From IMG/VR virus record IMGVR_UViG_3300045131_000618, positions 1-32,011 of that record: a stretch of DNA of 32,011 bases, one strand, 5' to 3'. Below the pieces are notes generated by a model. The model did no database searches, was not told where the DNA came from, and saw only the letters and a list, made by a program, of their open reading frames with translations. Both the position numbers and the translations under genes were made by a program. Origin of the DNA: a virus. Below, piece by piece: positions 10,013 through 13,777 of the stretch (position 1 is its first letter; every line of letters begins with the position of its first letter).

Positions 10013-11008
10013 CTACTTGATTTTTGATATTTGAGATTTAGCAAGTTTTAGGGCATTGCCACTTATTGCTGAATACCCAAACTCTTCAGCCTTACATTTT
10101 GTTATAGCAAAGGTAAAGAAATTAGCCACATCCTTTGATCCAACTGCTGCTATACCATAACTAAATGTAGATATGTTATAGGCCATCTTAGCAGTGTTGT
10201 TGTAGTTTGGCGTAATAGTTCCATTAGGGTTAGCAGAGAACTCTGACAAGAACCTTGATGCACCACCTGTTGTAGGCTTAACAAAGTTTCCAGCACCATT
10301 TTCAATATATGCTACGCCAAAGGCTTTTGTAAATGAAACCTCATTATAAGCAATTGATCCGTCTGTTCTTGATTGAAGCATCGCCACTCCTTGAGAGCCT
10401 GATGCTGATACAAACGCTCCAATTTTTTCATTTATATCCCCTGGAAATGCTGATGCAAATGCTTTGTTTCCAGATTTTGTCCATATATCTTTTGCAACTG
10501 CATTTAGATATGTGGTAAAAACTTCAGAAGTTCCAGATCCATCTGCTCTATATATAACAGTAATTTTTTTTGCTGGAAGTTTCATAGGATTGTCTTTTTT
10601 TAGCAGTGGATCATTCCACATACTAATTTTCCCTGAAAAAATCTTTGCCAAGTTATCCTTAGTTAGCTTTACTTGACCTTTATATCCATCTAATTTATAA
10701 CTAATTGCAATAGGTCCAGCAACAATTGGTACGTAAACAAAGTCTTGCTTAGGCTTTACTTCTGATGCCCCATATGGAACATCGCTTATAGCAAAGTCTG
10801 CAAGGCCTAAAGCAAATTGATTCTTGCCAGAACCAGACCCATTTGGAATGTATGAAATGCTGTTGCCTGTGACTGCATATGCCACTCTACATTTTTCTAC
10901 AAAGTTAAGAGCAAACGAAGAGCCTGAGCCCTTTATGTCTGCTGCTTCAGCGGTTGGTATAAATAAAACACTAGATAATAGTGCTATGATAATGAACTTG
11001 ATCTTCAT
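10013..11008 (-). CDS. pstS: Phosphate ABC transporter substrate-binding protein PstS
   Basis: Protein of 331 residues with a Sec signal peptide (MKIKFIIIALLSSVLFIPT, then AEA cleavage near 22). Phosphate-binding elements are GSGSSF (27-32), NGSGSGKNQF (56-65), DFAISD (71-76) and YRADGSGT (153-160), the arginine-aspartate-SGT loop that holds phosphate. No lipobox cysteine is seen. PstS captures phosphate outside the membrane for the PstCAB importer; no other pst gene is nearby, so it would work with the host transporter. pstS is a known auxiliary gene in cyanophages. A -10 box places transcription within a base or two of the ATG, and a palindrome covers the -35 region. Confidence 0.93.
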   Translation of the reverse strand: MKIKFIIIALLSSVLFIPTAEAADIKGSGSSFALNFVEKCRVAYAVTGNSISYIPNGSGSGKNQFALGLADFAISDVPYGASEVKPKQDFVYVPIVAGPIAISYKLDGYKGQVKLTKDNLAKIFSGKISMWNDPLLKKDNPMKLPAKKITVIYRADGSGTSEVFTTYLNAVAKDIWTKSGNKAFASAFPGDINEKIGAFVSASGSQGVAMLQSRTDGSIAYNEVSFTKAFGVAYIENGAGNFVKPTTGGASRFLSEFSANPNGTITPNYNNTAKMAYNISTFSYGIAAVGSKDVANFFTFAITKCKAEEFGYSAISGNALKLAKSQISKIK

Positions 11009-12660: not shown

Positions 12661-12852
12661 TTATATCATTAGACGGACTACATGGCAACATGGGTCACCA
12701 CCGTCATCCCATTCTTTAACTTCTTCTTCGCTCATGAACTCATATCCACCATCATGAGTATTACAGTATGGATCTGAAATCCATCCCCGCTCAATACCGC
12801 TTGTTAGCCAAATACCAAACTCTGCATCTTCTATGCTATCTTCTTTATGCAT
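12661..12852 (-). CDS. Hypothetical acidic protein
   Basis: Protein of 63 residues, very acidic, with GWISDPYCNTHDG and GGDPCCHVVRL around three cysteines and two histidines that could bind a metal. I do not recognise a named family. A promoter with TTGACG and TATACT places the transcript start at the ATG itself, so it appears leaderless. The subtilase start follows 9 bases after its stop and has its own strong ribosome binding site. Confidence 0.7.
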   Translation of the reverse strand: MHKEDSIEDAEFGIWLTSGIERGWISDPYCNTHDGGYEFMSEEEVKEWDDGGDPCCHVVRLMI

Positions 12853-12858
12853 ATTATA

Positions 12859-12887
12859 AGTATACTCCTAAACGCTTACTACGTCAA
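12859..12887 (-). promoter_or_regulatory. Sigma70-type promoter giving a leaderless transcript
   Basis: TTGACG (12887-12882), 17-base spacer, TATACT (12864-12859). Transcription would begin at about 12852, which is the A of the ATG. A second box TATAAT sits between the -10 and the ATG. It overlaps the 3' end of the Ntn-hydrolase gene. Confidence 0.65.
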
Positions 12888-13398
12888 CTGGGCCCATACA
12901 TGATGGACTAAATTTAATTGCTGAATTTACTGCACCTACTACACGTTTTCTTGCATCTTTTGCTTTTTCCGTGGCATTTAAATATCCATAAGCATACTCA
13001 GCTCCTGACCCCATAGCAAGGTATGGAAGTGTATATTTAGACAAAGACATGTCTGCTGAACTATGTTCATATATATTTCCACGAACTGCAATTATTAAAC
13101 CAAGGTCACCTTCTTTTGAAGTATCCACCCAGAAATCATTATAGAATGCACGAAGTTGTTTAATAAATTTAGTTTGCATAAATTTATCTGTATCTTTAAT
13201 ATCTGGTACATAAGGGTTAAAGTTATAGCGTATTCGCTCACCATCCATTGATCCAGCATATCCAATTAAATAGGGTCCTAGTTTCCAAACCTTTGGACTA
13301 GATAGTGCTAAGATAGTGCCATCGTCAGATGCACCACGTTCTCCAGCCATATATATTTTATTATTTATTTCATCACGAACTACTGCAATACAAGTCAT
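12868..13398 (-). CDS. HslV/proteasome-like Ntn-hydrolase
   Basis: Protein of 176 residues whose order of motifs follows HslV, the proteasome beta-like protease: MT at the start, so Thr2 would become the N-terminal nucleophile after Met removal; MAGERGASDD (17-26) in place of IAGDGQAT; SPKVWKL (34-40) with the catalytic-lysine region; GYAGSMDGERI (46-56) like GFAGGTADA; and MGSGAEYAYGYL (129-140) like the GSG-x-x-x-A block. Size matches HslV (about 175). No HslU or other AAA+ unfoldase is seen nearby, so it may act alone, use a host ATPase or be an amidohydrolase of the same fold. It has its own consensus promoter and GGAGGGG ribosome binding site. Confidence 0.8.
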   Translation of the reverse strand: MTCIAVVRDEINNKIYMAGERGASDDGTILALSSPKVWKLGPYLIGYAGSMDGERIRYNFNPYVPDIKDTDKFMQTKFIKQLRAFYNDFWVDTSKEGDLGLIIAVRGNIYEHSSADMSLSKYTLPYLAMGSGAEYAYGYLNATEKAKDARKRVVGAVNSAIKFSPSCMGPVDVVSV

Positions 13399-13428
13399 GC
13401 AGAAACCCCTCCCAAAGCGATATATTTA

Positions 13429-13457
13429 AGTATACCACCCCTAGGAGGGGCTGTCAA
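13429..13457 (-). promoter_or_regulatory. Consensus promoter of the Ntn-hydrolase gene with a palindrome in the spacer
   Basis: TTGACA (13457-13452), 17-base spacer, TATACT (13434-13429), with TG one base before the -10 (TGGTATACT). The spacer holds CCCCTCCTAGGGG (13450-13438), a 5-bp inverted repeat around three bases, a plausible repressor operator and possibly a weak terminator for the upstream gene. The predicted start is near 13422, giving a leader of about 24 bases. Confidence 0.75.
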
Positions 13458-13477: not shown

Positions 13478-13777
13478 CTATGCTGTCTTTGATTTTGATC
13501 TGCGTGTTTCTACTACTTCATCTTGTACAGTTTTTGCATTTTTATCTGTTGTAGAAAATGCTGCGTTGATTTCATCTCTTGTAAGTCTTCCGTCATCCAT
13601 AAATGCACGAGCCAACTTCTCAACAACGACTGCTACTGCACTAAGGCCTGCTACTGTCATTGCTTTTGCTACTGATATTCCTGCAATTGCACCAGCGCCG
13701 ATTACTGCAAGTGCATTTGCTGCAAACACTGCGAGAATACGCATGAGAATATTCCATATATTTGTTATGCTATTCAT
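13478..13777 (-). CDS. Small holin-like membrane protein
   Basis: Protein of 99 residues. Hydrophobic segments at about 8-35 and 38-54 (VAGLSAVAVVVEKLA) can make two membrane helices. Residues 60-71 (MDDGRLTRDEINAAF) resemble an EF-hand-like calcium loop, a motif seen in several small phage proteins. The tail is polar and basic (RRSKSKTA). No named family is certain, but size, topology and its place next to another tiny membrane protein fit a holin. AGGAG precedes the start. Confidence 0.6.
   Translation of the reverse strand: MNSITNIWNILMRILAVFAANALAVIGAGAIAGISVAKAMTVAGLSAVAVVVEKLARAFMDDGRLTRDEINAAFSTTDKNAKTVQDEVVETRRSKSKTA

Follow-up and report, generated by a model that had tools for sequence, protein, structure and literature searches.

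A proteasome-type hydrolase gene of freshwater phages, its constant small neighbour and a candidate translational lock in its leader

What does a proteasome-type hydrolase do in a phage that carries no visible unfoldase, and how would its synthesis be timed? This question is raised by a locus in the window, the 32,011-nucleotide stretch of IMG/VR record IMGVR_UViG_3300045131_000618 analysed here. The first-pass annotation placed an HslV/proteasome-like Ntn-hydrolase at 12868–13398. These coordinates are correct, but the gene sits on the minus strand, where the open reading frame runs from 13398 to 12868 and encodes 176 residues and a stop; the plus strand of the same interval contains 12 stops. 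All the motifs cited in that annotation (MTCIAVV, AGERGAS, SPKVWKL, GYAGSMDGER and GSGAEYAYGYL) are found in the protein.

12868–13398, minus strand: proteasome/HslV-like Ntn-hydrolase gene, 176 residues, Met-Thr start, without propeptide

The protein matches PHROG_1040, "peptidase HslV family", over residues 1–175 (E = 2.4e-18). The Pfam Proteasome family gives an E-value of 0.01 with the window protein alone, which does not reach the cut-off, and matches 35 of 42 aligned phage relatives (20–98% identity), with a best E-value of 1.3e-13. Since a PDB search with the single sequence returned marginal matches (best E = 0.25), a profile of the 42-member alignment was needed, and this profile matched HslV along almost its whole length (1m4y, E = 2.1e-14) as well as BPH (5ovu, E = 3.4e-12). 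The AlphaFold2 model (pLDDT 91.9, pTM 0.88) has an Ntn-hydrolase fold and matches 885 PDB chains at E ≤ 0.001 in Foldseek, where BPH ranks first (TM 0.80), followed by HslV (0.71–0.76), 20S beta subunits and Anbu. The viral Foldseek matches include proteins named HslV, proteasome subunit beta and Ntn hydrolase. The proteasome-type Ntn-hydrolase reading is therefore borne out by the PHROG family, the profile matches and the predicted fold, and we regard both fold and family as close to certain. The likeness to HslV stood in part: HslV is close and scores above BPH by sequence profile, yet the nearest solved fold is that of BPH. The protein is best explained as a phage-borne group I proteasome homologue of the HslV/BPH branch.

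The codons of the putative catalytic residues lie at the following positions.

13393–13395, minus strand: Thr2, the predicted nucleophile (Thr1 once Met is removed)
13339–13341, minus strand: Glu20, counterpart of proteasome Asp17
13291–13293, minus strand: Lys36, counterpart of proteasome Lys33
13252–13254, minus strand: Gly49, likely counterpart of the oxyanion-hole Gly47, placed by alignment
13006–13008, minus strand: Ser131, in the GSG motif

Thr2 directly follows the start Met, so removal of Met would expose it; in BPH, Met is removed and Thr1 reacts with epoxomicin (PMC5777263). The first-pass annotation had staked its reading on an Ntn-hydrolase fold, which the model shows, and on the conservation of Thr2 and Lys36, and both residues are identical in 77/77 close relatives and invariant in the 42-member alignment. 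At position 20, 69 of these 77 relatives carry Asp and the other eight Glu; Glu20 of the window copy is a conservative exception within a Thr/Asp17/Lys33 set that is otherwise complete. The GSG motif is retained, Gly49 is conserved in 50/50 sequences, and Ser131 is found in 50/50 close relatives and is nearly invariant in the 42-member alignment. As judged by alignment, the counterparts of proteasome Asp166 and Ser169 appear altered (SPSCMG). A set of 21 phage members, the majority highly divergent, keeps G-x-G together with the Thr, the acidic residue and the Lys.

This conservation bears on the idea of a decoy that would serve counter-defence or host takeover by co-assembling with the proteasome or HslV of the host or by blocking it. 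The fold is the same as that of cellular subunits, and the late-type position near lysis genes described below would suit such a role. However, a decoy would not be expected to keep its catalytic residues unchanged, or almost so, among phage members that have diverged this far, and mixed rings with host subunits are unlikely because the identity to solved cellular subunits is about 15–24%. We consider a decoy very improbable.

Proteasome homologues without an AAA+ partner or functional context, some of them in phages, were described by Fuchs, Alva and Lupas in 2021 as PPH, AAH, CPH and others (PMC8665760), so the window protein represents no new kind and is a further example of these already described homologues. 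Like PPH, AAH and CPH, it is phage-encoded, lacks a propeptide and an AAA+ partner, and has the Thr1/Asp17/Lys33 set and a compact group I architecture. Compared by description, PPH has about 140 residues and lacks H2, whereas the window protein has 176 residues and both helices of the first pair (53–59 and 70–88) are predicted in the model. No actinophage carrier of AAH was found in the 2021 survey (PMC8665760), whereas the relatives of the window protein belong to stanwilliamsvirid-like, probably actinobacterial, phages. BPH (PDB 5ovs and 5ovu) shares with the window protein its fold, the absence of an unfoldase and a similar C-terminal strand (GPVDV in BPH, APIDV in the window protein). On the other hand, BPH is bacterial and only about 20% identical, and the window protein shows no clear counterpart of its long acidic pore loop. 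HslV (ClpQ), similar in profile and fold as given above, works with HslU, whereas no HslU was found for the phage and the Asp17 counterpart of the window copy is Glu. Separately, a Vibrio phage homologue (L090:3001–3984; 327 residues in total) has a long acidic C-terminal extension that recalls the RPC group of Fuchs 2021 (PMC8665760).

The absence of HslU or another AAA+ gene, already remarked in the first-pass annotation, extends to relatives' contigs of up to 113 kb. AAA_2 and AAA were above the cut-off in none of ten records (the window and nine relatives' contigs), and AAA_5 above the cut-off and HslU (TIGR00390) were each found in 0/7 records; ClpP, sought in relatives only, was found in 0/6. 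Since the window record covers just 32 kb of its genome, this claim rests on three relatives' contigs of 111–113 kb, which may themselves be incomplete. With no phage-encoded AAA+ unfoldase found, any unfoldase that is required must be the host's. HslV and the proteasome work with AAA+ rings, and the phage ring could likewise borrow a host ATPase such as Clp, Mpa/ARC or another AAA+ protein for substrate unfolding. However, the nearest fold, BPH, has no known partner unfoldase and has lost the HslU-interface residues (PMC5777263), and Fuchs 2021 found no co-occurring AAA+ protein for such homologues (PMC8665760). Borrowing of a host ATPase therefore seems unlikely. The most likely mechanism, which we hold with middling confidence from the sequence and the model, is that of an active peptidase that would act independently of an unfoldase. 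BPH itself is inert on standard peptides and casein (PMC5777263).

The first-pass annotation grouped the gene with hsp20 and a subtilase as a small proteostasis set. This grouping is weak: among 61 loci whose downstream sequence extends for 5 kb or more, 55 have Hsp20 and 31 have the subtilase, versus 61/61 for another gene, which encodes a 63-residue protein. The constant neighbour is this protein, not Hsp20 or the subtilase.

12661–12852, minus strand: gene for a conserved 63-residue protein (CxTH...DPC), 15 nt downstream of the peptidase gene, a candidate functional partner
13478–13777, minus strand: gene for a small membrane protein, holin-like, directly upstream of the peptidase gene

The 15-nt gap is kept in nearly all loci, and W, C, TH and GGDPC are invariant in the 63-residue protein. 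It has no convincing Pfam family (the best is the SWIM zinc finger, in 19/42 members, best E = 0.0086) and no fold match in the PDB. A homologue also occurs about 1 kb upstream of the peptidase gene in another phage group (L117:1785–1979), and gene 2 of Mycobacterium phage Aminay is a distant match. The constant 63-residue neighbour could be the substrate or cofactor of a specific amidase or ligase, possibly a connectase-like monomer, that acts on one phage or host target, perhaps this neighbour. Connectase is a precedent for a monomeric ligase within the family (PMC8665760), but the window protein lacks a connectase-type insertion and its model has both helix pairs, like ring-forming members. 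We rate such a specific amidase or ligase as rather improbable and favour the active peptidase.

Upstream of the peptidase gene lies the holin-like membrane protein or, in a minority of loci, a CHAP endolysin or another gene. The assignment of the small membrane protein as a holin is weak: it matches PHROG_443 (holin) at E = 0.011 and PHROG_26427 ("nuclease") at E = 2.5e-24. In a second freshwater lineage, whose homologue is about 28% identical (at least 595 loci; L129–L208 belong to it, on contigs of up to about 40 kb), the gene also follows an endolysin-like gene and a small membrane-protein (holin-like) gene, and 44 of 56 long loci have an endolysin-like peptidase (SDHN...D.T motif) within 1.7 kb upstream. 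The linkage to lysis is not universal, since other phage lineages, including the T5-type, place the homologue among nucleotide-metabolism genes. Farther along the window, a gene for a PstS-like phosphate-binding protein (10013–11008, minus strand; PBP_like_2, E = 1.4e-35) is present in 1/80 relatives; it is a recent acquisition and possibly an auxiliary metabolic gene.

The peptidase gene is preceded by a promoter, TTGACA-17-TATACT (13457–13429, minus strand), which matches 11 of 12 consensus positions and has TG before the −10 hexamer.

13452–13457, minus strand: −35 hexamer TTGACA, conserved in relatives
13429–13434, minus strand: −10 hexamer TATACT, with TG in front, conserved in relatives
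13439–13451, minus strand: 5′ arm of a predicted hairpin, GCCCCTCCTAGGG, within the −35/−10 spacer
13405–13417, minus strand: 3′ arm of this hairpin, CTTTGGGAGGGGT, which includes the Shine-Dalgarno sequence GGGAGGGG (13413–13406)

A consensus or near-consensus promoter is present in the leaders of all 79 relatives (72 by pattern and seven by eye), even where the upstream gene differs. A second promoter-like site, TTGACG-17-TATACT, lies at the end of the peptidase gene (12887–12859, minus strand), 6 nt before the start codon of the 63-residue protein; it overlaps coding sequence and the Shine-Dalgarno sequence and recurs in the relative G001.

In predicted folds of the read-through RNA, the Shine-Dalgarno sequence pairs with the CCCCTCC arm located between −35 and −10, while RNA that starts at the gene's own promoter leaves it mostly unpaired. 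Judging from the position of the −10 hexamer, transcription would start downstream of the 5′ arm. Over 41 distinct leaders, the predicted mean unpaired probability of the Shine-Dalgarno region is 0.05 in read-through versus 0.53 in own-promoter RNA; in 11 leaders without the arm, the predicted values are 0.49 and 0.58. Of the other strong promoter-like sites in the window and in a 112-kb relative, none comes close to this leader in strength of fold (−29.4 and −27.1 kcal/mol). The arms also co-vary: pairing of each arm with its own partner gave 27.8 versus 23.7 after permutation, a value reached in 0/5000 class permutations, and 23 distinct arm pairs contain 15 mismatches versus 26.8 when dealt at random, a value reached in 0/2000 column dealings, but these counts are neither probabilities nor independent tests because the loci are related by descent. 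Another promoter-like site, at coordinate 102363 (plus strand) of G001, in L106, has the spacer GGGCCCGC, which is nearly complementary to GCAGGCCC just before the next start codon.

The hairpin precedes the peptidase gene in 58/58 loci in which the holin-like gene lies directly upstream (54 by motif and four that were missed by motif and placed there by the neighbour survey), and in none of 19 loci with another upstream gene. Where a gene has been inserted (five loci), the hairpin keeps its place after the holin-like gene and forms part of the leader of the inserted gene; this is clear in four loci and weak in L012. We therefore reject a hairpin specific to the peptidase gene. The "private" promoter of the first-pass annotation is real and conserved, but the hairpin over the Shine-Dalgarno sequence is tied to the position of the holin-like gene.

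Leader hairpins hide the ribosome-binding site of T4 gene e (lysozyme), soc, 49 and I-TevI; in the gene e type, the promoter lies within the DNA that encodes the 5′ arm, and transcripts from this promoter lack the arm (PMC3014915). The leader in the window has the same layout, with promoter DNA serving as the 5′ arm and the 3′ arm covering the Shine-Dalgarno sequence, and its arms co-vary. It differs in that T4 gene e has a T4 late promoter, whereas the window has a sigma-70-type promoter. In addition, the controlled gene here, as read from sequence, would be the peptidase or whichever other gene stands behind the holin-like gene, unlike in T4 gene e. We consider that the hairpin is probably a T4 gene e-like translational lock on the gene that follows the holin-like gene. 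Because it goes with the holin-like gene, the hairpin may affect the peptidase gene only incidentally.

The paired arms might instead be a DNA operator or the terminator of the holin-like transcript. An element that remains behind the holin-like gene despite a different next gene behaves as a 3′-end element would. However, substitutions that preserve pairing and the many T-G (U-G in RNA) pairs, 34 of 230 cells versus 15 mismatches, fit RNA better than a DNA palindrome. The spacing between the arms varies from 44 to 48 nt, no U tract follows the stem, and the hairpin was not listed by the terminator scan. An operator or terminator is thus possible but doubtful, and the translational lock remains our preferred reading.

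Relatives of the 176-residue protein are encoded at no fewer than 484 loci in IMG/VR. A peptide-seeded search for close relatives found none among 84,980 genomes of bacteria and archaea (one genome per species). TerL and DnaE share about 53% identity with their counterparts in Streptomyces Stanwilliamsviridae phages, and inspection shows a WhiB-like gene; an actinobacterial host is therefore likely, as judged from these genes. The GC content is 31–40%. The nearest matches of the PstS-like neighbour (34–38% in Lysobacter and Pseudoxanthomonas) are uninformative on the host. In the Stanwilliamsviridae phage Yaboi, the peptidase gene is absent even by profile search, and a seed from Vibrio phage phiTY18 had no match in IMG/VR.

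Taken as a whole, the locus is best explained, with moderate confidence, by a proteasome-like peptidase, a 63-residue cofactor, adaptor or inhibitor, and timed expression. Host methionine aminopeptidase would expose Thr1, and the subunits would assemble into a ring that may cleave peptide bonds in substrates that are small or have already lost their fold, with no unfoldase dedicated to it, as has been suggested for BPH. The 63-residue protein may act on this ring as a cofactor, adaptor or inhibitor. Read-through transcripts from the holin-like gene would fold the leader so that the hairpin hides the Shine-Dalgarno sequence, while transcripts from the gene's own promoter would begin downstream of the 5′ arm, with the Shine-Dalgarno sequence left accessible, as in T4 gene e. 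A more far-reaching and improbable reading is a two-gene viral degradation unit, in which an unfoldase-free proteasome-like ring and a dedicated 63-residue cofactor, late, lysis-adjacent and translationally locked, would help with the timing or completion of lysis or with the last steps of virion assembly; in the 28%-identical second lineage, too, the homologue stands behind endolysin-like and small holin-like genes.

Phage proteasome homologues are common, occurring here in two lineages and on hundreds of freshwater phage contigs, and the 2021 survey could assign them neither a substrate nor a partner nor a genomic context (PMC8665760). The locus offers two testable handles on such homologues: a constant small gene for a candidate partner, and a co-varying leader, putatively a translational lock, tied to the holin-like gene.
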